A stretch of 32,773 bases of DNA from Prevotella sp. (GTDB taxonomy: Bacteria; Bacteroidota; Bacteroidia; Bacteroidales; Bacteroidaceae), in the NCBI GenBank assembly GCA_017557185.1, contig JAFZAP010000093.1:1-32773 (forward strand), given 5' to 3'. The position numbers were made by a program, and so were the translations under genes. Of the stretch, positions 79 to 25,505 are shown piece by piece. Position 1 is the first letter of the stretch. Each line of letters opens with the position of its first letter. The notes under the pieces are model-generated. The model was not told where the DNA came from, made no database searches, and saw only the letters and a list, made by a program, of their open reading frames with translations.

Positions 79-110
79 CCTCTCCTTTCGGAGAGGGCTG
101 GGGTGAGGCC
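79..110 (-). repeat. REP-like GC-rich element, copy a
   Basis: CCTCTCC (79-85) and GGAGAGG (90-96) form a perfect 7-bp hairpin, followed by a CTGGGGTGAGGCC tail. Read on the minus strand it starts GGCCTCACCCCAGCCC, which matches the copies at 15424-15462 and 10230-10254. It begins directly after the stop codon of the carboxylesterase, so it may act as that gene's 3' hairpin. Confidence 0.7.
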
Positions 111-1628
111 TTACCTCCTACCAAACCCGAAGCCTTGGGGCTGGGGTGCTTTCTCGGGTTCACCGAAGAAGGAAGCCTCTGCGTCCTTGTCGTTGAGCTT
201 AAACACCATGAACTTCGGGTTCTTCTCGGTGCAGGGTGCCCACACGCCGCCCTTCTTTCCGTTGGGATCGCCATACTTTACGAAGTTCGTCCACGCGGTG
301 AGCATCTTCTCGGAAAGGTCCCAGTCGCCTTGTGTCCAAGGACGCCAGCAGTGCTTCAGCGACTTGAACACGAACCAGAGGTCGCTGCTGTGGAAGGCGC
401 CGCGCAGACGCTGTGTCACCTCGGGATGACTGCCGTCGTCGGGCAGCGGACGTGCAAACTGATAGGCCCAAGCCTTGCCGCCCTTCTGCTGACGCACCTT
501 GCAGAACTCAGCGATGTTGGGAGCCATGTTGCCCATATCGTTCAGTGTGAAGCCAATCATGTAGGGCACATCGGCCAACGTGCCTTCGCGGGTGGCGTCG
601 TCGAAGCTCTTGATGCTGACATAGCCATCGATCATCGGCATGAAGGCCAGTCCCCGGCGCATGAACGGCATTCCGCCGCCAGCCTCTTGCCCGTCGCTGT
701 TGACCTGATAGTAAAGGGTGTTGAGGGCGAAGACGGTCTCGGTGCTTGCCTGGCGCATCTTCTGCAGGTCGGTGAGCCCGGCCCAGTCGAATACTTTCTT
801 GGCATTGGCAGCAGCATCCTCAATGCTTCCGCCGCTATAGCGGGCACCCATCGGGTTGCCGTTGGCATCGGGAATCGAAAGTCCCTGCGCACTCATGATG
901 ACAGCCTTGTGGAAAAGGCCGCGAGCCAGCGGACTCTCGCAGAGTGTGCGCACACTGCCACCGCCGGCGCTCTGTCCGAAAATGGTCACGTTGTCGGGAT
1001 CGCCGCCAAACTGTGCGATGTTCTTCTTAATCCATTTCAGCGCCTCGATCTGATCCAGGATACCGTAGTTGCCGGACACATGATGCGGGCTCTCCTCAGC
1101 CAGAGCAGGGTGAACGAGGAATCCGAACACGCCCAGGCGGTAGTTGATGGATACCAACACCACATCCTTCGCACCCCATTCCTGTCCGTCGAACTCCGGT
1201 TCGGAGCCGAAGCCCTCGCGATAGCCGCCACCGTGAATCCACAAGGCTACGGGCAGCTTCTTGTTCACCTGACCGGGAGCCTTCGTCCAAACGTTCAGAT
1301 ACAAGCAGTCCTCGCTGAAGGCAGCCTCCTTGCCATAGCCCCACTCAGTGTAGTAGCCACCGGTGTATTGAATAGCCTGATAGCTGGGGCGGCCGAAGGT
1401 GTCGCAGATCTTCACACCCTTCCAAGGCACAACGGGCTGAGGTTCCTTCCAGCGGTTCTCACGGATGGGAGGAGCAGCGTATGGGATGCCGCGATAAACA
1501 TACACGTCAGGATGGTCGTCGGTCAGTACGCCTTGCACCTGGCCACCTTCAATCGTTAACACAGGGTTTTCTGCCGCATAGGCAGATGCTGCTACCATCA
1601 GCAGAAGAGATACAAACAGTTTTTTCAT
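111..1628 (-). CDS. Secreted type-B carboxylesterase
   Basis: A 505-residue exported alpha/beta hydrolase of the carboxylesterase type B (COesterase) family, which cleaves carboxylic esters. A signal peptide covers about residues 1-19 (MKKLFVSLLL... ending AYAA). Family motifs are in order: EDCLYLNVW at 106-114, the oxyanion-hole HGGG at 132-135, the nucleophile Ser220 in GQSAGG, an acidic residue near Asp363, and the probable catalytic His412 in GAFHSSDL. The acidic triad member appears as NDMG where many relatives have DEG. The start at 1628 is preferred over ATG 1637 because it gives a standard signal peptide. It is the second gene of a two-gene unit, 24 bp after the other hydrolase, so both probably act on periplasmic or extracellular esters. 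The natural substrate (for example feruloyl or acetyl ester on plant polysaccharide) cannot be told from the sequence. Confidence 0.9.
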   Translation of the reverse strand: MKKLFVSLLLMVAASAYAAENPVLTIEGGQVQGVLTDDHPDVYVYRGIPYAAPPIRENRWKEPQPVVPWKGVKICDTFGRPSYQAIQYTGGYYTEWGYGKEAAFSEDCLYLNVWTKAPGQVNKKLPVALWIHGGGYREGFGSEPEFDGQEWGAKDVVLVSINYRLGVFGFLVHPALAEESPHHVSGNYGILDQIEALKWIKKNIAQFGGDPDNVTIFGQSAGGGSVRTLCESPLARGLFHKAVIMSAQGLSIPDANGNPMGARYSGGSIEDAAANAKKVFDWAGLTDLQKMRQASTETVFALNTLYYQVNSDGQEAGGGMPFMRRGLAFMPMIDGYVSIKSFDDATREGTLADVPYMIGFTLNDMGNMAPNIAEFCKVRQQKGGKAWAYQFARPLPDDGSHPEVTQRLRGAFHSSDLWFVFKSLKHCWRPWTQGDWDLSEKMLTAWTNFVKYGDPNGKKGGVWAPCTEKNPKFMVFKLNDKDAEASFFGEPEKAPQPQGFGFGRR

Positions 1629-1652
1629 AACGCACATTCTTTTATCATACGG

Positions 1653-2567
1653 TTACTTCATTTTTGCGTTCTTCTCCAACGTCCAGCGATCGCGCTTGGG
1701 CAGCGTGCACTTCTTGCCCTTGAACATCTTGGCCGACTTGCGGTCGCCCTTCAGCTGCCAGTTGAGCCAGGCGAGGGCAACGACGGAGAACTCACCGCCG
1801 TGAGGCTGGCGATAGGTGCCACCGTGACCGACGGGGAAGTTGGCGGCGCAGGCAGGCACATGACTGATGCGGTGGAAGTCGTCCATGCCGTTCTCGTAGG
1901 CGATGTCTTCCTTACCGCCGAGGATGTAGATGATGGGAGAGTGGATCTCCTTCAGCTTCGTCTTCGGAGGCATAGGCATTCCGCCTACAGCACTACCCGC
2001 ATTCTCACGGTTGAAGAGACCGCTGTTGCAGATCATCAGCGTAGTGATGCGTGGGTCGGCACAGTTGTAGAGCGTCTGCAGTCCGCCACACGACATACCT
2101 GCAGCACAGATGTTCTTCACGTCGATCTTCCCGTAGTAGGGCGACGACGGGTCGCTATTCTGCGCCACAGCCCAGTCGATTGATTCTACCTGCTGTTCGG
2201 TTGTCGACATCGGGCCGCGGTAGGGTTCTTCGTTCATCGGGATAAAGCCTGTTGCCACAACGAGGTAGCCATAGGAGGCAATCTCGTTCAGGAACTTGTA
2301 GTGCTCCCAAGGGGAGTTGGTGCAGGCGCCGTTGCCCCATACCAACACGGGCAGCTTCTGCTTCTTGCCGAACTTCGACAGGTCCTGCGGTGCGAACACG
2401 GTGTGGGCAGGCAGGTTGGCTTCTTCCTTCATGATGGCTTTGTAGGGGCCTGTTCCACCGTCTTCTACGATTCGCGACTTGTTCTCTCCATCGCCGTTGA
2501 ATCCCATACTGACGAGGCTGAAACCCCACAGCATGGCGGCTGTACATAATAATCGAATGGTTCTCAT
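1653..2567 (-). CDS. Exported alpha/beta hydrolase (GxSxGG type)
   Basis: A 304-residue protein with an N-terminal hydrophobic export signal (about residues 1-22) and an alpha/beta hydrolase fold. The VWGNGAC segment at about 77-82 is a typical strand and oxyanion-loop region, Ser159 in GMSCGG is the probable nucleophile, and the GHGGTY near the C-terminus (about residue 248) is a candidate for the catalytic His. It resembles dienelactone-hydrolase or cutinase-like proteins rather than type-B esterases, and the substrate is unknown. It is the first gene of the pair, with a sigma-ABfr-like promoter upstream, and the carboxylesterase follows 24 bp after its stop. The two are unrelated in sequence but share export and ester-hydrolase chemistry, which suggests a joint role in removing ester groups from a substrate. 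Confidence 0.82.
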   Translation of the reverse strand: MRTIRLLCTAAMLWGFSLVSMGFNGDGENKSRIVEDGGTGPYKAIMKEEANLPAHTVFAPQDLSKFGKKQKLPVLVWGNGACTNSPWEHYKFLNEIASYGYLVVATGFIPMNEEPYRGPMSTTEQQVESIDWAVAQNSDPSSPYYGKIDVKNICAAGMSCGGLQTLYNCADPRITTLMICNSGLFNRENAGSAVGGMPMPPKTKLKEIHSPIIYILGGKEDIAYENGMDDFHRISHVPACAANFPVGHGGTYRQPHGGEFSVVALAWLNWQLKGDRKSAKMFKGKKCTLPKRDRWTLEKNAKMK

Positions 2568-2615
2568 AGGTTTAATAATTTAGTGTAGAAATTTGATTTG
2601 TTGCGCTTCAAAATG

Positions 2616-2651
2616 CAAATTTAGTAATATTTTTTCGAATTTGTGTACAAA
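2616..2651 (-). promoter_or_regulatory. Sigma-ABfr-like promoter of the hydrolase pair
   Basis: On the minus strand TAAATTTG (2623-2616) matches the -7 consensus TAnnTTTG. A TTTG at 2651-2648 is the best -33 candidate but lies 24 nt away, slightly long. The -7 box is about 50 nt upstream of the start at 2567. Confidence 0.5.
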
Positions 2652-2675
2652 GTTATAGTTTTTTTTATATCTTTG
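2640..2675 (+). promoter_or_regulatory. Sigma-ABfr-like promoter of the envelope operon
   Basis: TATCTTTG at 2668-2675 is a perfect -7 box. TTTG at 2640-2643 is the best -33 candidate, with 24 nt between. It overlaps the divergent promoter of the hydrolase pair, so the two transcription units share about 36 bp of control region. Its position downstream of ATG 2643 rules that start out for the next gene. Confidence 0.65.
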
Positions 2676-2711
2676 CAATCTGAGATTGCGAGTACTAAAC
2701 ATCCCAACACA

Positions 2712-3989: not shown

Positions 3990-4024
3990 CAAACAATCAG
4001 AAACTTAACAATAATCAAAAAAAC

Positions 4025-4549: not shown

Positions 4550-4561
4550 TCAGACGACGGT

Positions 4562-5689: not shown

Positions 5690-5726
5690 CCTTTCCGACT
5701 ATTGAAAAGGAAGAAGTCTTTTCAGG

Positions 5727-6464
5727 ATGAAGAAACTGTCGCATCTCCTCTCCTACGTGCTCATCGCTGCATTTCTGCTGGTGGTGGGCATTGCTATTCA
5801 CGATGTTTTCTTCCCTGAGGACAATCTGCTCAAGGCGCTGCTCTACGGTTCGTCGCGGAACAGTTCCCCGTGCAACGGAATTGACGTGAGCCACCATCAG
5901 GGCATTATCGACTGGGAGGCGGTAGGAGCCACGAATGTGCAGTTTGTGTTTTTGAAGGCCACGGAGGGCAGCACACATGTTGACCGCCGCTTCTCCCGCA
6001 ATCTGCGCGGTGCCCGCAAGGCTGGGATTCCCGTAGGCGCCTATCATTTCCTGAATGCGAAAAGCACCATTGCTGGACAGTTTGCCAATTTCTATGAACA
6101 CGCTTCGCCCGAGCAGCTCGACCTGCTGCCTGTGGTCGATGTGGAGTGGGTTGGTGTGCGCGGATGGAACACACGCCAGCTGCAGGACAGCCTGATGCTA
6201 TTCGTGCGATTGGTGGAAGAATACTATGGATGCAAACCGATCATCTATTCTGATTTGCGGTTTTTCAATCATCACCTGAAAGGCCGCTTCGACAAATACC
6301 CGCTTTTCATCGCGCGCTACCAAAAGAATCAGCCGCAACTGCCTTTTGCCCGCCGATATTATCTCTGGCAATCGTCAGAGAAAGGACATGTGGCCGGCAT
6401 CAATGGGCATGTTGACTTGGACATGCTGACGACGGGCACGGAGTTACGAGATATTATGATGTGA
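5727..6464 (+). CDS. GH25 family lysozyme (muramidase)
   Basis: A 245-residue glycoside hydrolase family 25 protein, which cleaves the beta-1,4 bond between MurNAc and GlcNAc in peptidoglycan. An uncleaved signal anchor or signal peptide is at about residues 5-23 (LSHLLSYVLIAAFLLVVGIAI). The GH25 fold starts at GIDVSHHQGIIDW (about 51-63). The DVEW motif in LLPVVDVEW (about 135-143) carries the acidic catalytic pair, and FLKATEG and GAYHFLNA are further family blocks. At about 190 residues the domain is full length. It is the last gene of the envelope group and converges on xth, with a GC-rich hairpin in the 37-bp gap. A role in cell-wall remodelling or in lysis of other bacteria is possible. 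Confidence 0.93.
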   Translation: MKKLSHLLSYVLIAAFLLVVGIAIHDVFFPEDNLLKALLYGSSRNSSPCNGIDVSHHQGIIDWEAVGATNVQFVFLKATEGSTHVDRRFSRNLRGARKAGIPVGAYHFLNAKSTIAGQFANFYEHASPEQLDLLPVVDVEWVGVRGWNTRQLQDSLMLFVRLVEEYYGCKPIIYSDLRFFNHHLKGRFDKYPLFIARYQKNQPQLPFARRYYLWQSSEKGHVAGINGHVDLDMLTTGTELRDIMM

Positions 6465-6465
6465 A

Positions 6466-6500
6466 TCCCCCTCCCGGTCGGGGTGGGGCGGGGTGGGGCT
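6466..6500. repeat. REP-like GC-rich element, copy j; probable bidirectional terminator
   Basis: The element fills almost the whole 37-bp gap between two convergent stop codons. CCCC and CCCG pair with CGGG and GGGG around a GT loop, and the minus strand reads AGCCCCACCCCGCCCC, similar to the copy at 19044-19080. Its position suggests a shared terminator, although there is no clear T run. Confidence 0.6.
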
Positions 6501-6501
6501 A

Positions 6502-7251: not shown

Positions 7252-7284
7252 ACGCTGTGGTTGGTTGTTGATTCTCGGCTGCTG

Positions 7285-8595: not shown

Positions 8596-8603
8596 AGTAT
8601 CGA

Positions 8604-9254
8604 CTAGTATTGCACGGTTATCTTGCCTTTCACTACTACCGCCTGTTTATAGCCCAGTTTCTTCACGTTAGTCAGCATGCGGTTGGCTTCGTCAAGTGTG
8701 CGGTAGTTGCCCATGCGGCAAATCCAGCGCGGTGAGTAGAAGTGCACGTAGATGGGCTCTGAGGGATAGGCACGCTTCACGACGCGTCCGGCCTCCTCGG
8801 CTTGCTGCTTTGCTTCGCGCGAGTTGCCGCCTGCATACACCTGCACGCGGTATCCGTTCACCTTCTGTGCTCCGCGCAGAATCTTCTTGCTCATGTCGAC
8901 CTCCACCTCGCCGGTGCCTTCAGGATCGGTCTTCGGCATATCGGGGCGCAGCGCCTGACGCTCCTTCGGTTCCTCCTTTTTCTCTTCCTCCTTCTTCTCT
9001 TCCTCCTTTGCATTGCCGGCGGCAGTTGCAGGCTTGGTGACAGGTGCCGGCGGTAACACGCCGTTCACCAGGTCGCTGATTTCCTTGCTCTGCGTCACCG
9101 AAACAGTGCCCAGTCCCTGTTCGTTCTGCTGCAGATGTTCCAGATAGGACTGGGCGCTGAGGGTCATTGATGTAAATAAGAATAGGAGTAATACGACCCA
9201 CCCCCTGCCCTCCTTGTGAGGGAGGGAGTTGTATGTTTTGCACAATGTTTTCAT
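8604..9254 (-). CDS. SPOR-domain cell-envelope protein
   Basis: A 216-residue exported protein. The N-terminus is a signal peptide ending LSAQ (about residue 35). A charged low-complexity linker rich in EEEKKEE follows at about 80-100. The SPOR domain occupies about 135-210 ([22 protein letters not shown], then [30 protein letters not shown]), and binds glycan strands lacking stem peptides at division sites. Residues 9-20 ([12 protein letters not shown]) are encoded by a GC-rich repeat element (9196-9230) and form an unusually long signal-peptide n-region. A Met lies upstream at 9266, but ATG 9254 gives the more natural start. It lies between tpiA and folE. Confidence 0.85.
9196..9230 (+). 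repeat. REP-like GC-rich element, copy g, inside SPOR gene
   Basis: Starts ACCCACCCCCTGCCCTCC and ends GAGGGAGGGAG, giving a CCCTCC/GGAGGG hairpin. It overlaps codons 9-20 of the SPOR-domain gene. It is similar to, and in inverted orientation with, the copy at 9313-9349. Confidence 0.75.
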
Positions 9255-9312: not shown

Positions 9313-9349
9313 ACTACTTCCCTCCATGAGGGAGGGGTAGGGGGTGGGT
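9313..9349 (-). repeat. REP-like GC-rich element, copy h, upstream of SPOR gene
   Basis: On the minus strand it begins ACCCACCCCCTACCCC and continues with a CCCTCCATGAGGGAGG hairpin. It fills the tpiA-SPOR gap next to the tpiA stop codon. With copy g it forms an inverted pair flanking the start of the SPOR gene. Confidence 0.75.
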
Positions 9350-9360
9350 CTCCCTCTTAC

Positions 9361-10119
9361 TTATTTCCAAGCGTCGATGATGCCCTTGAAGTCGGCTGCC
9401 TTCAGCGAAGCACCGCCGATGAGGCCACCGTCGATGTCGGGCTTTGCAAACAGCTCGGGAGCATTCGAAGCCTTGCATGAACCGCCATAGAGGATGGTGG
9501 TGTCGTCGGCAACAGCCTGTCCGTACTTCTCAGCGATGATCGAGCGGATGTAGGCGTGGATTTCCTCAGCCTGCTCAGCAGTAGCGGTCTTGCCGGTTCC
9601 GATGGCCCAGATGGGTTCGTAGGCGATGACGATCTTGCGGAAGTCCTCCTCGCTCAGGTTGAAAACGCTGCCCTCGAGCTCGGTCTTCACCACTTCGTTC
9701 TGCTTGCCGGCCTCGCGTTCTTCCAGGCTCTCGCCGATGCAGAAGATCACCTTCAGGTCGTTCTTCTGGGCCAACAGCACCTTCTCGCGCAGAATCTCGG
9801 GAGTCTCCTTATAGTACTCGCGACGCTCGGAGTGTCCGAGAATCACATACTGAGCACCCGTTGATTTCACCATTTCGGCTGATACCTCACCCGTGAAGGC
9901 ACCCTTCTCCTTGTCGGCACAGTTCTCAGCACCCAGAGCCACAACGTCCTGATCCAGGAAGTCGGCAATCTTTGCCAGGTGGATGAATGGTGTGCAGATC
10001 ACAACACCGCAGTTGGGCTTGTCAGCCTTCAGTGTCTCGTTGAGCTCCTTAGCCAGAGCGATACCGTCTTGCAGGTTCATGTTCATTTTCCAGTTGCCTG
10101 CTACAATCTTTTTTCTCAT
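9361..10119 (-). CDS. tpiA: Triosephosphate isomerase
   Basis: A 252-residue glycolytic enzyme interconverting dihydroxyacetone phosphate and glyceraldehyde 3-phosphate. All active-site motifs are present: GNWKMN at 8-13 with catalytic Lys11, the GHSERR block (catalytic His), [14 protein letters not shown] (catalytic Glu and flexible loop 6) and the phosphate-binding YGGSCKASN and GGLIGGASL loops. Full length. A sigma-ABfr-like promoter lies directly upstream, so it can be expressed separately from the DoxX-like gene 86 bp before it. Confidence 0.98.
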
Positions 10120-10205: not shown

Positions 10206-11525
10206 TTAAGGTAATAATTTACTATTTGACCCCTGAGAGGGCTGGGGTGAGGCTCTTTTCCTTCGGAACCACTTCGTCCATGCCCACGTGCGGTCGGCAA
10301 GCGTGAGCAAGGTCAGTGGAAGGACGAACCACAGCAGGATGGTAGCTATCTTTCGCGGCGTGCTGTCGGCAGGCTGATGCCCGATGGGCAGCTGCTCCAG
10401 CGGTTGTGCCGATAGCGCTGGATCGATGTGTGGCAGGTCGTTGTGGCTCCATTTCCCGATGATGGTACCCGCCTTCAGGAGCACCAGTCCCGGATTCGAG
10501 CGGATCACGGTCTTCAGCGTAGTTTCGTCGGTGGTGCAGAACGGATATTCCGCTCCCGTCAGCTCTATCCAGCGGTTGATGGCCTCGTCGGTCGAGGCGG
10601 TGAGGCAGTAGAAAGGGTAGTCGTGCTCCTCCGCATATTCGTATATCTGGTCGATGTCGCCGAAGTTCGAGTCGTCGGCATTCTCCAGATGCGGCGAGCA
10701 CAGCAGGAATGTGTATCCCGGGTCCTCGAGGATCTGTTCTGTGATATCCTCCTCGTGGAGAACAATCGAGAAGTCGTGGATGGGCGGCACATATCCCTTC
10801 TCCGTCTGTACGGTCTTTGAGTCGATGAATGTCCACGTGGAGTCGGGGTAGTCGTCGAGTGTGAACTCCTGTCGCTGCCCGTCCTTCTCCATGATGAAAG
10901 TCGTCTCGAACTTCGGTTGCGGAGCCCCCTCTGGAATCTCCATACCCTCGCTGATATTCGTTCCGAGGCGATAGGGCCGGAAGTCGAAGGGCGGCAGCAT
11001 GTACAGACTCCACAGACTGGAGCCGATAATGAAGATGATGGTGTAGTTGATGACGATCCACTGGTTCGACTCCGAGATGAAGCGCACCATCTTCAGCGGC
11101 CACCACGCCACCACCACAGCACATGCCAGCAGCAAGAGGTTCTTCAGCAGCGTCTGCCCGTTGGTGAGCTTCAAGGCGTCGCCGAAGCACCCGCAGTCCT
11201 CGATGGGGTTGGCGATGTAGAGCCACAGCGTGACGAGTGTCATCACCGCGATGAAGAACAAGGTCAGCCGCGACACCAGGCGTCGCTGGATGGCGAACAG
11301 CAGAAAGATGCCCAGACAGAATTCCACTGCCGACAGTACCACCGATCCCGATAGCGTGAGCCAGTCGGGAGCGAGTGCCGACATTCCCGCCGCTTCGGCA
11401 TAGTCGTGCAGTTTGTACTGCGTGCCCAGCGGGTCTATCGCCTTCACGTAGCCCGAGAATATGAACACCGCCGCCAGCACCAGTCGGCAAATGTTTACAA
11501 TGATGGTATTAATAGAGCGTTTCAC
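10206..11525 (-). CDS. DoxX-like membrane protein with thioredoxin-like C-terminal part (BT_3928 family)
   Basis: A 439-residue inner-membrane protein. The first 150 or so residues form four hydrophobic segments of the DoxX/MauE type (LVLAAVFIFSGYVKAIDPLG at the start). A further segment lies near 160, and a soluble part follows at about 190-370 with a thioredoxin-like pattern (YTFLLCSPHLENAD, then LTGAEYPFCTTDETTLKTVIRSNPGLVLL). A last membrane helix is near 395-412. I know this architecture as the BT_3928 family next to tpiA in Bacteroides. A redox role is plausible but unproved. Its start overlaps the DUF1599 stop by 4 bp (ATGA). The C-terminal tail, about residues 424-432 (RASPQPSQG region), is encoded by a repeat element and is probably not part of the original protein. 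Confidence 0.82.
   Translation of the reverse strand: MKRSINTIIVNICRLVLAAVFIFSGYVKAIDPLGTQYKLHDYAEAAGMSALAPDWLTLSGSVVLSAVEFCLGIFLLFAIQRRLVSRLTLFFIAVMTLVTLWLYIANPIEDCGCFGDALKLTNGQTLLKNLLLLACAVVVAWWPLKMVRFISESNQWIVINYTIIFIIGSSLWSLYMLPPFDFRPYRLGTNISEGMEIPEGAPQPKFETTFIMEKDGQRQEFTLDDYPDSTWTFIDSKTVQTEKGYVPPIHDFSIVLHEEDITEQILEDPGYTFLLCSPHLENADDSNFGDIDQIYEYAEEHDYPFYCLTASTDEAINRWIELTGAEYPFCTTDETTLKTVIRSNPGLVLLKAGTIIGKWSHNDLPHIDPALSAQPLEQLPIGHQPADSTPRKIATILLWFVLPLTLLTLADRTWAWTKWFRRKRASPQPSQGSNSKLLP
10230..10254 (-). repeat. REP-like GC-rich element, copy c, in C-terminal tail of DoxX-like gene
   Basis: On the minus strand it reads GAGCCTCACCCCAGCCCTCT, closely matching the copies at 79-110 and 15424-15462. 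It supplies the last codons but seven of the DoxX-like gene. Confidence 0.7.
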
Positions 11526-12587: not shown

Positions 12588-12936
12588 ATGAAAACAGAAA
12601 TATTTTTCATTTTTATTCTCGAGCGATAGTACCTTCGACCGAAGGTCAGAGTAATGAAAACCGAGCGCAGAACAAAATAAAATCGGTTTTATTTTTCGAT
12701 CTCTCCGTTTTTTCTGTATTGTACCGATTTATTATACAGAGCATGTCTTTAGAGGATACGGAGCATTGTTCCAGAGGATACAGAGCAGTGTTCCAGAGGA
12801 TATGGAGCATAGCTCTAGAGAGAAAGGAGGCATGCTCTGCATGCTACGGAGCATGCCTCAAGAGGTTTTTCCTTGTTCTCCCAACCTTTTAAGCGAGCTT
12901 AAGGTGTGAGCATAATAAAAAAAATAAATTGATTTA
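12588..12936. other. Gene-free divergent intergenic region with hairpins and tandem array
   Basis: Between the divergent lipoprotein and XRE-cupin genes no credible coding sequence was seen. It holds a hairpin at 12631-12646 (ACCTTC/GAAGGT), one arm of a 13-bp inverted repeat at 12655-12667, an AT-rich 9-bp hairpin at 12674-12695 (AAAATAAAA, TCGG, TTTTATTTT), the 22-bp tandem array at 12741-12872, and a hairpin near 12885-12904 built on TTAAGC/GCTTAA. An open frame of 106 codons at 12572-12892 is not credible because it runs through the tandem repeats and lacks homologous pattern. Confidence 0.75.
12741..12872 (+). repeat. 22-bp degenerate tandem repeat, about six units
   Basis: Units start at 12741, 12763, 12785, 12807, 12829 and 12851, each exactly 22 bp. 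They begin GCAT or GCAG (the fifth GGCA). The common core is CAGAGGATA in units 1-3, and most end in GGA. Units 2 and 3 differ at only a few positions; units 4-6 are more diverged. The fifth and sixth units form a perfect 9-bp stem (12829-12837 with 12849-12857, GGCATGCTC/GAGCATGCC). As 22 is not a multiple of 3, it is unlikely to be a coding repeat. Confidence 0.85.
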
Positions 12937-13696: not shown

Positions 13697-15424
13697 ATGG
13701 AAAAAGAAAAGATAGTGGAATCAGGTAACACAAATACGAACGCCAACTCTGCCCCTATGGGGCAGGGGGGTGAGTTCACCCTCTTTGAGCGCACCCTGGG
13801 CCAGTGGCTGGAACACTGGGCAACGGTGACGCCCGACCGGGAGTATATCGTTTATAGTGACCGCGACCTGCGATTCACATGGGCAACTTTCAATGAGCGC
13901 GTGGACAACCTGGCAAAGGGCCTTCTCGCCATCGGTGTGAAGAAAGGCTCGAATGTTGGTATCTGGGCGACGAATGTGCCCGACTGGCTGACGTTCCTCT
14001 ATGCTACGGCGAAAATCGGCGCGGTGCTGGTGACGGTGAACACGAACTATAAGCAGGCTGAGCTGGAGTACCTGTGCAAGGACTCCGACATGCACACACT
14101 CTGCATCACCGACGGCACGTGGGAGTGCGACTATATCGACATGACCTATAAGATGCTGCCGGAGCTGCGCGACTGCGAGCGCGGACGCCTGCAGAGTGAG
14201 CGCTTCCCCTGCATGAAGAACGTCGTCTATATCGGCATGGAGAAGCATCGCGGTATGTTCAACACCGCAGAGCTGCTGCTGCTTGGACAGAACATCGACG
14301 ACGAGGAGCTGACGGAGGCAAAGAGCCGCGTGACTTGTCACGATGTGGTGAACATGCAGTATACGAGTGGCACGACGGGCTTCCCGAAGGGCGTGATGCT
14401 CACCCACTACAACATCACGAACGATGGTTTCATCACGGGTGAGAATATGGCGTTCACGGAGAAGGACAAGCTGTGTGTCTGTGTGCCGCTGTTCCACTGT
14501 TTCGGTGTGGTGTTGGCAACCATGAACTGCCTCACCCACGGCTGTACGCAGGTGATGGTGGAGAAGTTCGATCCGCTCGTCGTGTTGGCATCGGTGCACA
14601 AAGAGCGCTGCACAGCCCTCTACGGTGTGCCTACGATGTTCATCGCCGAGCTGAACCATCCTATGTTCCCGATGTTCGACATGTCATCGCTGCGCACGGG
14701 CATCATGGCGGGTTCGCTGTGCCCGGTGGAGCTGATGAAGCAGGTGTCGGATAAGATGTTCATGACCATCACTAGCGTGTACGGCCTCACCGAGAGCTCG
14801 CCGGGAATGACGCAGTCGAACATCAACGACACGTTCGAGCAGCGCTGTACCACCGTGGGCCGCGACTTCCCGTTTGTGGAGGTGAAAGTGCTCGACCCGG
14901 AGACGGGCGAGGAGTGTCCGGTGGGCGTGCAGGGCGAGATGTGCTGTCGCGGCTTCAACGTGATGAAGGGCTACTACAAGAACCCCGAGGCTACGGCGGA
15001 GGTGATCGACAAGAACGGATTCCTGCACAGCGGCGACCTCGGCGTGAAGGACGAGCAGGGCTACTATCGCATCACGGGCCGCATCAAGGATATGATTATC
15101 CGCGGCGGTGAAAACGTGTATCCGCGCGAGATCGAGGAGTTCCTCTATCACATGCCGGGCATCAAGGACGTGCAGGTGGCTGCGGTGCCCTCGAAGAAAT
15201 ACGGCGAGGAGGTAGGCGCTTTCATCATCCTGCAGGAGGGCGCGACGATGGAGCCTGAGGACGTCAAGGACTTCTGTCGCGGAAAGATTGCCCGCTACAA
15301 GACACCGAAATACGTGTTCTTCGTCGACTCGTTCCCGCTGACGGGATCGGGGAAGATTCAGAAGTTCAAACTCAAGGAGCTGAGTCTGCAGCTCTGCGAG
15401 AAGATGGGGATTGAGGTCATTTAG
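13697..15424 (+). CDS. AMP-binding fatty-acyl-CoA synthetase
   Basis: A 575-residue ANL-superfamily acyl-CoA ligase, activating a carboxylic acid with ATP and joining it to CoA. Motifs: P-loop [11 protein letters not shown] at about 221-231, [11 protein letters not shown] (A5), the linker and A8 region [20 protein letters not shown], and the catalytic Lys in [12 protein letters not shown] near the C-terminus. The length is normal for the family, apart from an N-terminal extension of about 27 residues before FTLFERTLG. Residues 17-27 ([11 protein letters not shown]) come from a GC-rich repeat element. Substrate chain length cannot be read from sequence; medium- or long-chain fatty acid is the usual annotation. 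Regulation by the adjacent XRE-cupin protein is likely. Confidence 0.92.
13746..13776 (-). repeat. REP-like GC-rich element, copy e, in acyl-CoA synthetase N-terminus
   Basis: CTGCCCC (13749-13755) and GGGGCAG (13759-13765) form a perfect 7-bp hairpin with a TAT loop, followed by GGGGTGAGTT. On the minus strand it reads AACTCACCCCCCTGCCCC, the same head as other copies. It encodes residues 17-27 of the synthetase. Confidence 0.72.
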
Positions 15425-15462
15425 GGGCCTCACCCCCAGCCCCTCTCCAAAGGGCGAGGGGA
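15424..15462 (+). repeat. REP-like GC-rich element, copy b, intergenic
   Basis: Starts at the last base of the synthetase stop codon with GGGGCCTCACCCCCAGCC, then CCCTCTCC and GGGCGAGGGG as the hairpin arms. A second partial GGGGCGAGGGG follows at 15469-15479. An open frame through it gives LTPSPSPKGEGS, a spurious extension of the CCA enzyme frame. It lies between the acyl-CoA synthetase and the CCA-adding enzyme. Confidence 0.75.
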
Positions 15463-15524
15463 GTATTTGGGGCGAGGGGAACAATAAAGGGGAGGAGAGG
15501 TACTGCCCCGAAAGAAAGAAGACC

Positions 15525-17012
15525 ATGAAATTATATAGCGATCAGGAACTGGCAGAGATACTGAATCAGGATGTTTTCCACCTGATTGGCGACTGCGCCG
15601 ATGAGCTCGGCGTGGAGTGCTATGTGGTGGGCGGCTACGTGCGCGACATCTTCCTCGAGCGCCCGTCGAAGGATATCGATGTGGTGGTCGTGGGGAGCGG
15701 TATCGAGGTAGCCCAGCTGCTGAAGAAGAAGCTTGGTCGCGGTGCACATCTGAGCGTGTTCCGTAATTTCGGAACGGCACAGGTGAAATTCTATGAGGGA
15801 CGTGGTGAGAAGCGAGTGGAGAAAGAGGTGGAATTCGTAGGCGCCCGCAAGGAGAGCTACAGCCACGACTCGCGCAAGCCCATCGTCGAGGACGGTACGC
15901 TGGAGGACGACCAGAACCGCCGCGATTTCACCATCAACGCGATGGCCATCTGCCTAAACAAAAACCGCTTCGGCGAGCTCGTAGACCCCTTCGACGGCAT
16001 CTACGACCTGGAGGACGGTATTATCCGCACGCCCCTCGACCCAGACATCACCTTCAGTGACGACCCGCTGCGCATGATGCGCTGTGTGCGCTTCGCCACT
16101 CAGCTGGGTTTCTTCATCGACGATGAGACCTTCGACGCGCTCTCTCGGAATGCCGAACGGCTGAAAATCATCAGCGGCGAACGCATTCAGGACGAACTGA
16201 ACAAGATTATCATGGCCCCGCACCCTAGCACAGGCTTCGACTATCTGTACCGTTCGGGTCTGCTGCAGCTCATCCTGCCCGAACTCACCGCCCTCGACGA
16301 TGTGCAGACGGTGAACGGCCGCGCCCATAAGAACAACTACTATCACACTTTGGAGGTGCTGGAGAATTTGGTCAGGCAGGGGGGTGAGGCCCCCCTTTGG
16401 CTACGCTGGGCCGCCTTGTTGCACGATATCGGGAAGATGAAGACGCGACGCTGGGAACCGGGCACAGGGTGGACGTTCCATAACCATAATTACGTTGGAG
16501 CGAAGATGGTGCCGCAGATATTCCGCCGGCTGAAGCTGCCGATGGATGCGAAGATGAAGTATGTGGAGAAGCTCGTCGACTTGCACATGCGCCCCATCGT
16601 GATTGCTGATGAGGAGGTGACTGACTCGGCGGTGCGCCGTCTGCTCAACGATGCCGGCGACGACATCGACGACCTGATGACGCTCTGCGAGGCCGATATC
16701 ACATCGAAGAACTCGCAGCGCAAGCAGCAGTTCCTGCAGAACTTCCAGATTGTTCGCGAGAAACTTGCCGACCTGAAGGAACGCGACTACAAGCGGCTTC
16801 TGCAGCCCGTCGTCGATGGAAATGAAATCATGGAGATGTTCAATCTGAAACCGTCGCGCGAGGTAGGAACGCTGAAGCAGACGCTGAAGGATGCCGTGCT
16901 CGACAACCGCGTGCCCAACGAGCGCGAACCCCTCCTGCAACTGCTTATGAAGAAGGCAAAGGAAATGGGGTTGTCCCTTACTTCGCCTTCAACCCCGTCA
17001 TCTGTAGAATGA
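15525..17012 (+). CDS. cca: CCA tRNA nucleotidyltransferase with HD domain
   Basis: A 495-residue enzyme that adds or repairs the 3' CCA end of tRNA. The poly(A)-polymerase/CCA head is at about 30-160: VVGGYVRDIFLERPSKDIDV holds the GGxVRD nucleotide loop and the catalytic Asp pair, and RRDFTINAMAI follows. The tRNA-binding neck helices come next (DDPLRMMRCVRFATQLGF), then an HD domain at about 275-400 with LLHDIGKMKTRRW. The frame is open back to 15411, but that part is translated repeat element. ATG 15525 starts the conserved protein. Residues 283-291 (VRQGGEAPL region) overlap a repeat-like sequence. The last 35 bp overlap the convergent Sel1-repeat gene. Confidence 0.93.
   Translation: MKLYSDQELAEILNQDVFHLIGDCADELGVECYVVGGYVRDIFLERPSKDIDVVVVGSGIEVAQLLKKKLGRGAHLSVFRNFGTAQVKFYEGRGEKRVEKEVEFVGARKESYSHDSRKPIVEDGTLEDDQNRRDFTINAMAICLNKNRFGELVDPFDGIYDLEDGIIRTPLDPDITFSDDPLRMMRCVRFATQLGFFIDDETFDALSRNAERLKIISGERIQDELNKIIMAPHPSTGFDYLYRSGLLQLILPELTALDDVQTVNGRAHKNNYYHTLEVLENLVRQGGEAPLWLRWAALLHDIGKMKTRRWEPGTGWTFHNHNYVGAKMVPQIFRRLKLPMDAKMKYVEKLVDLHMRPIVIADEEVTDSAVRRLLNDAGDDIDDLMTLCEADITSKNSQRKQQFLQNFQIVREKLADLKERDYKRLLQPVVDGNEIMEMFNLKPSREVGTLKQTLKDAVLDNRVPNEREPLLQLLMKKAKEMGLSLTSPSTPSSVE
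16372..16395 (-). repeat. Possible partial REP-like element, copy d, inside cca
   Basis: GGGGGGTGAGGCCCCCC reads GGGGGGCCTCACCCCCC on the minus strand, containing the GGCCTCACCCCC head shared with copies a and b, but lacking the CCTCTCC hairpin part. It encodes residues about 283-291 of the CCA enzyme, just before the HD motif. It may be a short fragment or chance similarity. Confidence 0.4.
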
Positions 17013-17738: not shown

Positions 17739-17746
17739 TAATTTTG
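17739..17746 (+). promoter_or_regulatory. Possible -7 box of the RND efflux operon
   Basis: TAATTTTG at 17739-17746 fits TAnnTTTG and lies about 107 bp upstream of the adaptor start. No TTTG was seen at the right -33 distance, so this is weak. Confidence 0.3.
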
Positions 17747-17852
17747 CAGTTTGAAAAAACTGATAGGCGCCTTTTGGTTTTCTTCCGATGGGTGCCCAGA
17801 TGGTTTTTTGATGATAAAGACATCAATAAAAATGTATAATAGTTATAAAGTT

Positions 17853-19040
17853 ATGAGAATTAAGACTTATTTCATGATTGCAGCAGCTGCTGTAATGCTT
17901 GCCTCTTGTGGAGGCAAGCGTGGTGGTCAGCCTAATTTCGCCGACGACGAGTATCCTGTGGTAACAGTAGGTACGTCGTCATCAGCCTCGCAGACCACCT
18001 ATCCCGCAACTATCAAGGGCGTGCAGGATGTGGAGATTCGCCCGAAAGTGGCAGGTTTCATCACTCGCGTGAATGTGCGAGAAGGCCAGGCCGTCGGTGC
18101 CGGTCAGGTACTCTTCGTCATCGACAATGCTACGTATCAGGCTGCCGTGCGTCAGGCTCAGGCTGCCGTGAACACCGCGAAGGCTCAGATGAACACTGCA
18201 AAGTTGACTTATGAGAACAACCAGAAGTTGTTTGAGCAGAATATCATTGGTGACTTCGAACTATCTACTGCCCGCAATGCCTACGAGACCGCTCAGGCTG
18301 CAGTGGCTCAGGCTCAGGCCGCACTGTCGTCGGCCCGCGAGACGTTGAGTTTCTGTTACGTGAAGAGCCCGTCGAGCGGTGTTATCGGTAATCTGCCATA
18401 CAAGGTAGGTGCTATGGTGAGCTCCGCCAGCACGCCTGCTCTGACCACGGTTTCTAATAATTCGGCTATGGAGGTATACTTCTCGATGAGTGAGAAGGAC
18501 ATCCTTGATATGACAAAGTCGTCGGGCACTGCCCAGGCTGCCATCTCTGCGATGCCTACAGTGAAGCTACAGCTGGCCGACGGCACTATTTACAATCACC
18601 CGGGTAAGGTGACGAAGATGAGCGGTGTGATCGATCCCGCTACGGGTTCCGCCCAGCTCATCGCCGTGTTCCAGAATCCGGAGCGCCTGCTGAAGAGCGG
18701 TGGCTCGGGTTCCATCATTGTGCCGCACGACAACTCGTCGGCCATTGTCATCCCGCAGGCTTGCGTCAGCGAGGTGCAGGACAAGAAGTTCGTCTACACT
18801 GTGACAAAAGACAATAAGGTGAAGTACACCGAGATTATGGTGGCTCCCCAGAACGATGGAAACAACTACGTTGTGACGCAGGGATTGAATGTTGGTGACC
18901 GCTATGTCACAAATGGTATCACCAAGCTCACTGATGGCCAGGAGATTGTGCCCATCACGCCACAGCGCTATCAGCAGAAGATTGACGAGCAGGCCAAGGC
19001 TATGAGTGCCGGCGACATCGTGAATGCGATGAAGAAGTAA
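17853..19040 (+). CDS. RND efflux periplasmic adaptor (AcrA/MexA type)
   Basis: A 395-residue membrane-fusion lipoprotein linking an inner-membrane RND pump to its outer-membrane channel. Signal MRIKTYFMIAAAAVMLASC with lipobox Cys19 supports the start at 17853; ATG 17832 is also possible. The first lipoyl half is at about 60-100 (VEIRPKVAGFITRVNVREGQAVGAGQVLF). A coiled-coil hairpin rich in Ala and Gln follows (AVRQAQAAVNTAKAQMNTAK, then ALSSARETL). The second lipoyl half is at VKSPSSGVIGNL, then beta-barrel strands and the membrane-proximal domain (VPHDNSSAIVIPQACV). It is the first gene of an adaptor, permease and channel operon. Confidence 0.94.
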   Translation: MRIKTYFMIAAAAVMLASCGGKRGGQPNFADDEYPVVTVGTSSSASQTTYPATIKGVQDVEIRPKVAGFITRVNVREGQAVGAGQVLFVIDNATYQAAVRQAQAAVNTAKAQMNTAKLTYENNQKLFEQNIIGDFELSTARNAYETAQAAVAQAQAALSSARETLSFCYVKSPSSGVIGNLPYKVGAMVSSASTPALTTVSNNSAMEVYFSMSEKDILDMTKSSGTAQAAISAMPTVKLQLADGTIYNHPGKVTKMSGVIDPATGSAQLIAVFQNPERLLKSGGSGSIIVPHDNSSAIVIPQACVSEVQDKKFVYTVTKDNKVKYTEIMVAPQNDGNNYVVTQGLNVGDRYVTNGITKLTDGQEIVPITPQRYQQKIDEQAKAMSAGDIVNAMKK

Positions 19041-19043
19041 ATA

Positions 19044-19080
19044 AGCCCCACCCCGACCCTCCCCCATAGGGAGGGAGGAG
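19044..19080 (+). repeat. REP-like GC-rich element, copy i, between adaptor and permease genes
   Basis: GCCCCACCCCGACCCTCCCC, then CATA, then GGGAGGGAGGAG, giving a CCCTCCC/GGGAGGG hairpin. It begins just after the adaptor stop codon and is followed by A-rich GTGAAAAATAAATAATGAAAA spacer sequence before the permease. It could tune expression within the operon. Confidence 0.7.
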
Positions 19081-19116
19081 TGAAAAATAAATAATGAAAA
19101 GTGAACAGTTAAGAAT

Positions 19117-22377: not shown

Positions 22378-22396
22378 TTCAATGCTTTTGATGATT

Positions 22397-23794
22397 ATGA
22401 AGAAGATAAATATAGTATTAGTAGGCCTGGCAGCAATCGTCGCACTGACGGGTTGCAAGAGTCTCTATGGAAAATATGAGCGTCCCGATGTGAACACAAA
22501 GGGACTCTATCGCGACCCCGTGTCGCTCACCGACACGCTGGCCGTTCAGGATACCACCTCGTTTGGCAATATGCCTTGGCGCTCGGTGTTCACCGACCCG
22601 CAGCTGCAGAACCTCATTCAGACGGCTCTCGATAACAACGTGAACATGCTCAACGCAGCATTGAACGTGCAGATGGTTGAGGAAGCATTGAAAGTGGCAC
22701 GTCTGGCCTTCTTGCCCTCTGTGGCTTTCACGCCGCAAGGCACTATTGCCAGTTTGCAGACCGATCCTGCTATCACAACGAAGAGCTACCAACTGCCGAT
22801 CTCGGCTTCTTGGAATGTCGACCTGTTCGGCAACCTGCTCAATGCCAAGCGTTCGGCTCAGATGCAGCTGCTTGCTACGCAGGACTATCAGACCGTGGTG
22901 AAGACCAACCTCATCTCGGGTGTGGCCAACCTCTACTACACACTGCTCATGCTCGACCGCCAAGTGCAAATCGTCGGCGAGATGGAGAATCTCACCAAGG
23001 AGACTTGGGAGAAGATGCAGGTGATGAAGGAGACGCGTGCCGGCTATCGCTCTACCGCTGTGCAGAGTTCGGAGGCCGCCTACTATTCCGTACAGGCTCA
23101 GCGCGTTGACCTGCTGCGGCAGGTGCGCGAAATGGAGAACGCCCTCTCGCTCTTGCTTGGACAGCCCGCCCAGACCATTCAGCGCGGCACGTTCGAAGGT
23201 CAGTATCTGCCCGAGAACCTTGCAACGGGTGTCGGCATCCAGTTGCTCAACAACCGTGCCGACGTGCACGCTGCTGAGCTCAGTCTCGCACAGTGCTTCT
23301 ACAACGTGAACCAGGCCCGTTCGCGTTTCTATCCGCAGATCACCATCACGGGCACGGGTGCCTTCACCAATAACAACGGCCTCGTGAATCCCGGTAAGCT
23401 GCTGCTTTCGGCAGTGGGCTCTCTTGTGCAGCCCATCTTCCAGCACGGGCAGATTGTTGCTGGGTTGAAAGTGGCTCAGATGCAGTACGAACAGGCCTTC
23501 AACACTTGGCAGAACACAATCTTGCAGGCTGGCAACGAGGTTTCGAACTCGCTCGTGCAGTATAATTCTGCTGCTGAGAAGTCGGAACTCGATGCCAAGC
23601 GCGTAGAGGTGCTGAAGAAGAATGTTGAGGATACTCGAACGATGATGGCTTCGTCGGCCAACATTTCCTACCTGGAGGTGATTTCGGCTCAGTCGAACCT
23701 GCTGAATGCCGAGATTTCGAAGGTCACCGATGATTTCAACAAGATGCAAGCCGTTGTGAACCTGTATCAGGCTCTTGGCGGTGGTGCGAAGTAA
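22397..23794 (+). CDS. TolC/OprM-type outer-membrane efflux lipoprotein
   Basis: A 465-residue outer-membrane channel of the NodT/OprM family. Signal MKKINIVLVGLAAIVALTGC has a lipobox with Cys20 and fixes the start at 22397 over ATG 22382. Two OEP repeats of long helices follow (WRSVFTDPQLQNLIQTALDN, AALNVQMVEEALKVARLAFLP and, in the second half, RADVHAAELSLAQCFYNVNQARSRFYPQ). VQPIFQHGQIVAGLKVAQ and the closing NLYQALGGG are typical. It starts 19 bp after the permease stop and completes the tripartite pump. Confidence 0.95.
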   Translation: MKKINIVLVGLAAIVALTGCKSLYGKYERPDVNTKGLYRDPVSLTDTLAVQDTTSFGNMPWRSVFTDPQLQNLIQTALDNNVNMLNAALNVQMVEEALKVARLAFLPSVAFTPQGTIASLQTDPAITTKSYQLPISASWNVDLFGNLLNAKRSAQMQLLATQDYQTVVKTNLISGVANLYYTLLMLDRQVQIVGEMENLTKETWEKMQVMKETRAGYRSTAVQSSEAAYYSVQAQRVDLLRQVREMENALSLLLGQPAQTIQRGTFEGQYLPENLATGVGIQLLNNRADVHAAELSLAQCFYNVNQARSRFYPQITITGTGAFTNNNGLVNPGKLLLSAVGSLVQPIFQHGQIVAGLKVAQMQYEQAFNTWQNTILQAGNEVSNSLVQYNSAAEKSELDAKRVEVLKKNVEDTRTMMASSANISYLEVISAQSNLLNAEISKVTDDFNKMQAVVNLYQALGGGAK

Positions 23795-23818
23795 ATTGAT
23801 AATTGAAAATTGACAATT

Positions 23819-24601
23819 ATGGCAAGTGACATTTCTCCACGTGCTGAGATATCGCCCAAGGCGAGAATCGGCGACAATTGTAAGATATTCCCCTTCGTCT
23901 ATATTGAGGACGACGTGGTCATCGGCGACAATTGCATCATCTTCCCCTTCGTGAGCATTCTGAATGGAACGCGCATGGGGAAAGGTAACAAGGTGCATCA
24001 GGGTGCTGTGATTGCTGCACTGCCCCAAGACTTCAACTTCATGGGTGAAAAGTCGGAATGCGTCCTCGGCGATAATAACGTCATTCGCGAAAATGTGGTG
24101 ATCAACCGCGCTACACACACGGGTTGCCAGACCGTTATCGGTAACGGCAACTTCCTGATGGAGGGCGCCCACGTCAGCCACGACACGAAGATCGGTGACA
24201 ACTGCGTGCTCGGCTATGGTACAAAGATTGCCGGCGATTGCACCATCGGCAATGGTGTTATCTTCTCGTCGAGCGTCATCGAGAACGCAAACACCTGCGT
24301 TGGCGAAGGCTCGATGATCCAGGCAGGAACGACATTCTCGAAGGACGTGCCGCCCTACATCGTTGCTGGCGGAAAGCCTATCGGCTATAACGGTCCGAAC
24401 TCAACGATGATGACCGCTTGCGGTATCAGCGAGAAGGTGCAGAAGCACATCGCCAATGCCTATCGGTTGGTCTTCAACGGTCAGGGAAGCCTCTTCGATG
24501 CCGTCCTGCAGATCAAGGACCAGATTCCCGATAGTCCTGAAATCCAGAACATCATCCGTTTCCTTGAATCTACCAAGGTCGGAATCATGACAAAATTGTA
24601 A
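23819..24601 (+). CDS. lpxA: LpxA-like acyl-ACP--UDP-GlcNAc O-acyltransferase
   Basis: A 260-residue left-handed beta-helix protein with hexapeptide repeats from residue 5 to about 185 (ISPKARIGDN, then VVIGDNCIIF and IGDNCVLGYG). LpxA transfers a hydroxyacyl chain from ACP to UDP-GlcNAc, the first step of lipid A synthesis. The catalytic His is matched by His121 in HVSHD, and the C-terminal helices (ACGISEKVQKHIANAYRLVF) are LpxA-like. The usual LpxA substrate loop (GxPQD) reads ALPQDFNFMGE. It is outside an lpx/fabZ cluster here, and ends 1 bp before the patatin gene, so it may be a paralogue with another substrate. ATG 23819 is chosen over an upstream TTG. The short spacer before it is AATTG-rich. 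Confidence 0.85.
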   Translation: MASDISPRAEISPKARIGDNCKIFPFVYIEDDVVIGDNCIIFPFVSILNGTRMGKGNKVHQGAVIAALPQDFNFMGEKSECVLGDNNVIRENVVINRATHTGCQTVIGNGNFLMEGAHVSHDTKIGDNCVLGYGTKIAGDCTIGNGVIFSSSVIENANTCVGEGSMIQAGTTFSKDVPPYIVAGGKPIGYNGPNSTMMTACGISEKVQKHIANAYRLVFNGQGSLFDAVLQIKDQIPDSPEIQNIIRFLESTKVGIMTKL

Positions 24602-24602
24602 T

Positions 24603-25505
24603 ATGCGCGCCTTCAGGCATATCACCCTCTCCCTACTGCTTCTGCTGACAACAAGCTTGTCGGCAGAAGCAGCAGTTCTTTTTTCCAACAAGAGCGACTC
24701 TACGCGCCTGGCCCTTGTGTTGGGTGGCGGTGGTGCGAAGGGAGCGGCCCATGTGGGAGTTCTGAAGGTACTCGAAGAGGCTGGCGTGCGCCCGGATATC
24801 ATCGTTGGAACGAGCATCGGGGCTATCGTGGGCGGTCTCTATAGCATCGGCTACAGCGCACAGCAACTCGATTCGCTCTTCCGTTCGCGACAGTGGCTGC
24901 AGCTTTTTACGCGCGAAGCCATTAAGGGCAATGCTATCAAGACGATGCTCGACAGTCTATGCCTTACTGCTCCCCTACGGGGGGAGGCTGGGAGGGGGCT
25001 TCTTTTCGCCTGTATCGCTGCCGACCTGCCGTCGTTCTCGGAAATTGTGCTCACGGGTGACTCATTGGCAAGAAACATGCGTGCCAGTATGTCGATCCCG
25101 GCATTGTTCAAGGCTGTTCGTTACGATGACTATGTGCTTTACGACGGTGGCATCTTCAACAACTTGCCTGTGGACGTAGCGCGAAAGATGGGAGCTACGA
25201 AGGTTATCGCCGTCGATCTAACTGTAAACCATCCCGATGACGACGACGATGCTCCTTCCGAATTTGTTCAGCTGCTCGACGACCTTCTCGGTCTTTCCAG
25301 TGCTGATGGTATCGTGGGTTGGCTCTTCAATCGGCCCGACTTCAAGAAATATCGCAAGAATTGCAAGGATGCCGACATCTACATCAATCCGCCGCTCTAC
25401 GACTATGATGCTACCGACTTTGGTCGTACAGCCATCACCAAGATGATTTCAATTGGTGAGCAGTCAGCGCGTCAGCAGATTGAAACCCTCCGTTCTTTTC
25501 GGTAA
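24603..25505 (+). CDS. Short exported patatin-like phospholipase
   Basis: A 300-residue protein with a signal peptide (about residues 1-22, ending LSAEA) and one patatin domain. The oxyanion loop is LGGGGAKGAAHVGVLK at about 41-56, the nucleophile Ser is in GTSIG (about 74-78), and the catalytic Asp is in DGGIFNNLPV at about 182-191. It hydrolyses acyl esters of membrane lipids. Many Bacteroidota patatins are about 700 residues with a C-terminal outer-membrane barrel, which this one lacks. Residues 122-134 (TAPLRGEAGRGLL) are encoded by a GC-rich repeat element in a loop before the LFACIAADL strand, and the frame stays open. Its start lies 1 bp after the LpxA-like stop, so the two are probably coupled in lipid or envelope metabolism. 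Confidence 0.9.
   Translation: MRAFRHITLSLLLLLTTSLSAEAAVLFSNKSDSTRLALVLGGGGAKGAAHVGVLKVLEEAGVRPDIIVGTSIGAIVGGLYSIGYSAQQLDSLFRSRQWLQLFTREAIKGNAIKTMLDSLCLTAPLRGEAGRGLLFACIAADLPSFSEIVLTGDSLARNMRASMSIPALFKAVRYDDYVLYDGGIFNNLPVDVARKMGATKVIAVDLTVNHPDDDDDAPSEFVQLLDDLLGLSSADGIVGWLFNRPDFKKYRKNCKDADIYINPPLYDYDATDFGRTAITKMISIGEQSARQQIETLRSFR
24966..25002 (-). repeat. REP-like GC-rich element, copy f, inside patatin gene
   Basis: CTCCCC (24970-24975) pairs with GGGGAG (24981-24986), followed by GCTGGGAGGGGGCTT. The minus strand reads AGCCCCCTCCCAGCC, matching the head of the family. It encodes residues 122-134 of the patatin in frame. Confidence 0.72.

Follow-up and report, generated by a model that had tools for sequence, protein, structure and literature searches.

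REP-like palindromes (REP, repetitive extragenic palindromic) are common bacterial repeats, and REPINs are doublets of REPs. In REP/RAYT systems (RAYT, REP-associated tyrosine transposase), as set out in PMC3733652, high-copy palindromes of 20-40 bp accompany a nuclease gene flanked by the repeats, and several such families exist, with a separate enzyme gene for each. The same paper describes the CGTC REPs, which include RPE-4 and RPE-6 of Rickettsia and dRS3 of Neisseria, as palindromes able to occupy genes in frame and lacking a dedicated transposase; for these REPs it knows no mobilising enzyme. Nucleases of the EDxHD group form another point of comparison, and PMC9403480 assigns a Thermosynechococcus DUF559 gene to that group. 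Here we analyzed a stretch of 32,773 nucleotides from Prevotella sp. (GCA_017557185.1, JAFZAP010000093.1; hereafter the window), which forms contig 85 in a draft genome of 3.35 Mb and 89% completeness and in which ten GC-rich hairpins had been predicted to form one dispersed REP-like family. The nearest named relatives of this genome are the rumen Prevotellaceae metagenome-assembled genomes RUG178 and RUG12193, to which its CCA enzyme is 86% identical. We find that the hairpins belong to a genome-wide family strongly associated with DUF559 (PF04480) nuclease genes. They are likely to be the ends, or internally deleted derivatives, of a mobile element that carries a DUF559 gene and that would work as REP/RAYT does, with an unrelated enzyme.

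All ten hairpin stretches of the original prediction are present as described, and its view of a dispersed palindrome family, occurring in both orientations and absent after 25 kb, was confirmed. A hairpin pattern gave 53 + 101 = 154 matches genome-wide (overlapping gap variants included) against 0 for the reversed pattern, so that the family is far above chance. Profile R1, built from 23 copies of the window genome, gave at least 158 matches at E ≤ 0.1 with its training copies included (150 of 1359 candidates scored); its matches to six of the ten window sites (E 1e-9 to 5.5e-6) are no test, as all six are training sequences. Profile R2, for which we used only copies from outside the window (17, from the same genome), recovered five of the ten sites independently, and it found no other full site in the window and none after 25 kb. 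Both are models without base pairs because MAFFT misregisters loops of unequal length. An Rfam scan of the window returned nothing at gathering scores.

The 150 copies listed were sorted by eye into sub-families of one shared plan: a C-rich head (ACCCACCCCC, GCCTCACCCCC, GCCCCACCCC or GCCTACCCCC), about two variable bases, a hairpin (for example CCCCTCCC-GAG-GGGAGGGG) and then AG(T). The G-rich strand carries a canonical G-quadruplex motif in 90 of these copies, and all four such motifs found in the window lie inside elements. Neighbors less than 200 bp apart are convergent in 18 cases ('+-'), divergent in none ('-+') and on the same strand in 8, the latter only 0-7 bp apart; four convergent pairs have an exact length of 113 bp, with ungapped spacers agreeing at 19-27 of 45 positions. 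At locus L037 (1338-2289), same-strand tandem arrays of the element have a period of about 37 bp, with five units in 2106-2289. The idea that elements are designed to be open in all six frames was dropped, since 51 of 150 copies against 974 of 3000 shuffled sequences reflects composition only.

Three long convergent pairs, with halves 414-440 bp apart, each contain a homologous open reading frame (ORF) that belongs to DUF559. These genes, of a nuclease family related to Vsr and I-Bth0305I, are thus placed between inverted copies of the element. PF04480 occurs in 37 of 60 genomes of the genus, and for 51 of the 85 matches listed we reverse-complemented the downstream flank and compared it with the upstream one, using 1000 random intervals as a control. 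The flanks of 41 of the 51 genes scored above the 99th percentile of the random intervals, and those of 26 above their maximum. Among 39 genes with strong arms, the gene's own right arm was the best match of the left arm in 31, a count helped by choosing the arms by their own alignment, and arm similarity co-varied with protein similarity (Mantel 0.39, 0 of 2000 permutations). Element load, counted per genome with stricter filters and at most 110 candidates scored, correlated with PF04480 over the 60 genomes (rho 0.69, p 1e-9); the family is present in 24 of 27 genomes with at least 10 elements and in 13 of 33 with fewer. Dispersed copies, with the six DUF559 arms excluded, best matched a DUF559 element of their own genome in 81.5 of 144 cases (ties shared), compared with 16.9 expected. 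In the 39 proteins the pattern DF...ExDGxxH is conserved at 90% or above, and the fold and residues are those of EDxHD (Vsr-like) nucleases; the roles of the conserved acidic and histidine residues are presumed. Solved-structure relatives, found by a search with a viral homolog, are 3hrl, 3r3p and 1cw0, and I-Bth0305I is among the closest.

Entry of palindromes into genes in frame, which had been proposed from the window, proved common genome-wide. By comparison with mechanical ORFs, 73 of the 150 copies lie inside an ORF of at least 200 amino acids with at least 40 on each side, 22 lie near an ORF end, and 55 lie in none. Ten host ORFs scanned with Pfam yielded seven clear hosts (MnmA, TatD, beta-galactosidase, PFL, UvrD/exonuclease, an AAA helicase type and Mfd), one ABC ATPase and two without a match; the element is inside the matched domain in MnmA, TatD, PFL and UvrD and beside or between matches in the others. 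Complete DUF559 units occupy in-frame positions within LeuRS, MetH, PriA, an AAA helicase type, an epimerase, an ABC ATPase and an Eco57I-type methylase, and others extend into the beginning of IspF, RpiB and guanylate kinase (Gmk). The names IspF, RpiB, Gmk, LeuRS, MetH, PriA, MnmA, TatD, PFL and Mfd come from Pfam, while ArgC, ArgG, RNase H, ABC-F and 'UvrA-type' were assigned by eye, Pfam giving ABC-type matches only for the last two. The MetH unit sits at the same place in two Bacteroidota genomes (L351 and L356), in L351 between two B12-binding domains.

Empty sites were seen in relatives for three genes. At the PriA site, DUF559 is present in its own genome only among 51 loci, with 480 nt between anchors as against 12-105 nt elsewhere; inserts of 27-105 nt in several relatives were considered as solo elements and rejected, being by eye not this palindrome. 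In the UvrA-type gene, the window genome has a 113-bp pair where genome G047 has an unrelated 14-residue loop, so that insertion may replace loop residues; the joined-flank search here matched mostly paralogs, and G047 alone was informative. Many Prevotella have empty loops in the CCA enzyme and others have varied inserts there, among them the full pair of the relative L033, and tblastn found no DUF559 gene in 80 CCA-gene loci. The same loops bear in-frame inserts of short direct repeats in L045, L064 and L089. These loops seem tolerant of many in-frame inserts.

Bracketing also recurs outside the genus. PF04480 was found in 78 of 148 Bacteroidota genomes, and 17 of 28 loci passed the bracket test at a score of 13.5 (a 29th was too short). 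Beyond the phylum, we chose 19 named records from 46 with a PF04480 match in a plasmid collection and compared them with 760 local controls; 12 exceeded the local 95% control and 9 the 99% control, the latter being Sinorhizobium meliloti, Qipengyuania, Sphingobium, Sphingomonas, Azospirillum lipoferum, two Pseudanabaena and two Deinococcus. Bracketing recurs in Cyanobacteria, Deinococcus and Proteobacteria, and in Qipengyuania the arm (GCCCACCCC..CCCCTCCCG) is almost that of Prevotella.

Bracketing, matching arms, non-autonomous pairs, tandem clusters, solo copies, in-frame occupation, empty sites and recurrence elsewhere are all observed, and from them we infer mobilization by DUF559. The complete form would be a DUF559 endonuclease gene of about 120-160 codons between two inverted palindrome copies. 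Its protein, a PD-(D/E)XK nuclease like Vsr and I-Bth0305I, would recognize its own palindrome as an extruded hairpin, a single strand or a duplex, and would cut near the element end. Host repair might then copy or join the element into a new place or, by homing, into an empty allele, and shorter copies would move in trans. The in-frame pattern would result from filtering by selection, in which an insertion survives only if the host protein stays functional, as it may in loops and at the ends of genes.

Several observations weigh against this explanation. No clear target duplication was found at 18 pairs (8-nt flanks, by eye). The link to DUF559 is not absolute, because three genomes (G022, G027 and G032, the last 97% complete) have 19-27 elements and no PF04480 match, and because some DUF559 genes are unbracketed: at a score of 13.5 the test fails for 10 of 51 genes in the genus and 11 of 28 Bacteroidota loci, and 7 of the 19 named records fail (two E. 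coli, Photobacterium, Shinella, Sinorhizobium K101, A. argentinense and Synechocystis, at 12.5). The local control of these records reaches 22, which leaves three records at 13.5-18 weak. Five genomes have PF04480 and no R1 match, and the gene of one of them, G039, bears another palindrome. R1 derives from the window genome, and its count there is inflated; the association tests ignore phylogeny, and the genomes compared are different species. The window element at 19044 has a counterpart in L033, and slow decay or a local function would account for this as well as mobility would. Bracketing was seen in none of the 15 viral DUF559 relatives tested of 21, on which ground phage relatives were rejected as carriers, and a phage collection held no match to a 33-nt element query.

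The original prediction suggested looking for a linked transposase of the RAYT/Y1 type, and no such link emerged; the linked gene is DUF559 instead. On the view that a Y1 (HUH) transposase moves the elements as ordinary REPs, with DUF559 as a passenger landing among them, their resemblance to REPs and REPINs would be expected, since they share the size, the hairpin, the doublets in inverted orientation and the many copies, and the window genome does contain one Y1 gene of 176 amino acids and two further partial matches. However, an element lies within 1.5 kb at 3 of 32 PF01797 loci and brackets none of the 32, and element load over the 60 genus genomes is uncorrelated with PF01797 (rho 0.13, p 0.31). 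Y1 genes instead have their own, different flanking inverted repeats in 15 of 23 loci scored (a GTAGGGGCAGACC palindrome at L001), and a passenger gene would not be expected to co-vary with the arms. With loci, bracketing and genome-wide correlation all negative, RAYT was rejected as the linked gene, and we consider this account highly improbable. Two Y1 loci have an architecture of their own. At L001, inverted GTAGGGGCAGACCCCCGTGTCTGCCC-type palindromes (GTAG; 1234-1267 and 1858-1890) flank the intact Y1 gene of the window genome, and these are a separate RAYT-linked family in the same genome. At L002, a Y1 match (about 1290-1850) lies inside long terminal inverted repeats and is TIRYT-like.

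Homing provides another account, in which DUF559 acts as a free-standing homing endonuclease with site specificity and its gene returns to fixed sites. The palindromes would then serve it for recognition or protection, and the dispersed copies would have spread otherwise. The kinship with I-Bth0305I speaks for it, as do shared sites: 30 of the 51 DUF559 genes share a homologous same-side host flank with other genomes, in ten groups of 2-5 genomes, and 17 of the 30 have their nearest DUF559 relative within their own group. For the remaining 13, though, it lies elsewhere, so that sites seem to be re-entered; shared sites are also explicable by vertical inheritance, copies at unrelated sites resemble the arms of resident DUF559 genes, and homing does not produce some 150 dispersed non-autonomous copies. 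We regard homing alone as unlikely. Site re-use is compatible with homing, or with inheritance combined with re-entry from other lineages, and homing at fixed sites may form part of the element's life. The elements might, alternatively, be immobile and selected for a host function as terminators, mRNA stabilizers or G-quadruplex signals, as the G-quadruplex motifs, the retention of 19044 in L033, and the position of the sites at 79, 6466, 9313, 15424 and 19044 directly after stop codons could suggest. Against such a function, 73 of the 150 copies are inside ORFs, sites vary between relatives, and at E ≤ 0.001 no copy was found in 17 of the 60 genomes of the genus; it is very doubtful. That GC-rich, low-complexity sequence matched by chance has a negligible probability: the elements are short and C-rich and several fold no better than shuffles, yet the reversed pattern has no match and five window sites were recovered by a model without window sequence. 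A mobile element with a DUF559 gene is the explanation that we consider likely.

To examine the window sites individually, we scored each against the flanks of the 51 DUF559 genes, with 60 random window pieces per site as a control. The predicted single family of ten sites held for seven, five by R2 and two more (24966 and 6466) by arm scoring; 10230 is borderline, and 13746 and 16372 are unsupported. This weaker support for single sites leaves the judgement the same, because the DUF559 link rests on genome-wide tests. A type B element at 72-110 (-), CCTCACCCC.AGCCCTCTCC-GAAA-GGAGAGG-AGT, adjoins the end of a carboxylesterase gene (111-1637, -); R2 matched 72-107 (E 0.0019), its hairpin has z -3.2, and its arm score is 20.0 (control maximum 23.5). 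The degenerate element at 6466-6500 (-) fills the gap between two convergent genes with stops at 6464 and 6502. It contains a G-quadruplex motif and scored 18.5 against the arms of the own-genome DUF559 element C113 (control maximum 15.0); neither R1 nor R2 matched it, and its fold is no better than shuffles (z -0.49). A convergent pair spanning 154 bp has its left half at 9195-9232 (+), either upstream of a SPOR-domain gene or at its start, which is uncertain (R2 on 9195-9230, E 0.0018; arm score 22.5, control maximum 16.0), and its right half at 9313-9350 (-), 11 bp from the stop of tpiA (9361-10119, -; R2 on 9315-9350, E 4.4e-8), for which the arms of the own-genome DUF559 element C62 are the joint best match. 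The probable truncated type B element at 10230-10254 (-) lies in frame at the 3' end of a MauE-type gene (10206-11525, -). It has a 19-nt head in common with site 79, no match by R1 or R2, and a score of 15.0 against the arms of own-genome DUF559 C42 (control maximum 16.5).

A possible element at 13746-13776 (-), at the start of an AMP-ligase gene (13697-15424, +), has a head and hairpin by eye, a loop CCCCTATGGGG containing an in-frame ATG, and a fold of z -2.8; R1, R2 and arm scoring (14.5, control maximum 19.5) gave it no support. Directly after the AMP-ligase stop and upstream of the CCA-enzyme start is a full type B element at 15428-15464 (+; R2 E 3.7e-10), for which the C42 arms are the best of the 51 (32.5). 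The stretch at 16372-16395 (-), within the CCA-adding enzyme gene, is head-only and likewise without support from R1, R2 or arm scoring (12.0, control maximum 19.0); the same loop bears elements in L033 (a pair), L037 and L084. A type C element at 19045-19082 (+) directly follows the stop of an HlyD-type gene (17751-19040, +; R2 on 19046-19080, E 0.0011; arm score 21.5, control maximum 14.0). Finally, the element at 24964-25002 (-) lies in frame inside a patatin gene (24603-25505, +) as LCLTAPLRGEAGRGLL and scored 23.5 against DUF559 arms (control maximum 16.0), with no R2 match. At this site, with the same flanking codons, the window and L033 have different single hairpin subtypes and L037 has a full convergent pair.

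The proposed overlap with five genes stood only in part: 24966 is within the patatin gene and 10230 reads as the C-terminal end of the MauE-type protein, but at 9196, 13746 and 15424 the true start codon is in doubt or lies further downstream, and 16372 is within its gene but unsupported as an element. In a comparison with L033, covering the sites other than 79 and 6466, the elements at 9196/9313, 10230, 13746 and 15424 are missing from L033 and a diverged counterpart of 19044 is present at the same place.

Other repeats were noted in the window. Its low-GC end contains a DDE_Tnp_1_3 transposase in two overlapping frames (30705-31067 and 31003-31494; 30705-31494 overall) and a perfect 20-nt inverted repeat (32367-32386 and 32637-32656, 250 bp apart), which perhaps marks the ends of a small mobile unit. 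A near-tandem array of a 22-nt unit lies at 12734-12865, with copies 73-77% alike to the reference, and a T-rich TATCTTTGCA-type motif, which we take to resemble Bacteroidota promoters, occurs five times (2661, 12954, 17732, 26789 and 29584).

Compared with the described systems, the elements resemble REP/RAYT (REPtrons and GTAG families) in their high copy number, convergent doublets, repeat-flanked nuclease gene and families with their own enzyme. They differ in that the enzyme is a PD-(D/E)XK/EDxHD DUF559 protein and not a Y1 HUH enzyme, in their C-rich head plus hairpin, and in very frequent in-frame insertion. GTAG stands 5' of the hairpin in 2 of 150 copies (on the 3' side in 26), and none of the 32 Y1 loci is bracketed by the elements. 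We favor the view that they work like REP/RAYT and are not members of it, because no flanked Y1 gene was found and GTAG is rare 5' of the hairpin. The CGTC REPs are also palindromes in frame in genes, with another sequence, from which the consensus of 150 copies differs by eye. A link of CGTC REPs to DUF559, suspected from PMC3733652, was rejected: a scan for C/T-G/C-TCAT-tagged hairpins found a CGTC-tagged hairpin (beginning with AT) in none of the 19 named DUF559 records. Free-standing EDxHD homing genes such as I-Bth0305I share the fold, the sequence family (3r3p) and site re-use; here, in contrast, there are bracketing palindromes, dispersed non-autonomous derivatives and in-frame occupation without a recognized intron or intein. 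Miniature inverted-repeat transposable elements are likewise internally deleted, non-autonomous inverted-repeat units, whereas here no DDE transposase partner was found, the arms are themselves hairpins, and no clear target duplication was seen at the 18 pairs. Unlike the Vsr very-short-patch-repair endonuclease, DUF559 here sits in a mobile-looking unit.

In searches of an open-access library, we found no paper linking DUF559 to palindromes and no description of such a mobile element. The claim of novelty rests on the enzyme class and on those searches; the general logic resembles REP/RAYT. We give about an even chance to a separate class of mobile element, in which DUF559 (EDxHD, Vsr-like) would move its cognate C-rich hairpin ends in cis and, in trans, the deleted copies of these, with no transposase involved, and which would persist in frame in essential genes. 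If so, this class would have left its footprints as the CCCTCACCCC...CCCTCTCCC-type palindromes found in Bacteroidota, Cyanobacteria, Proteobacteria and Deinococcota. One large palindrome superfamily gains a candidate enzyme that is not a transposase, which makes its mobility directly testable. If this holds, the large 'domain of unknown function' DUF559 would acquire a function, the odd PLPSGGxGGG-type inserts in conserved proteins would be explained, and a mobile element would be living in essential reading frames without known splicing.

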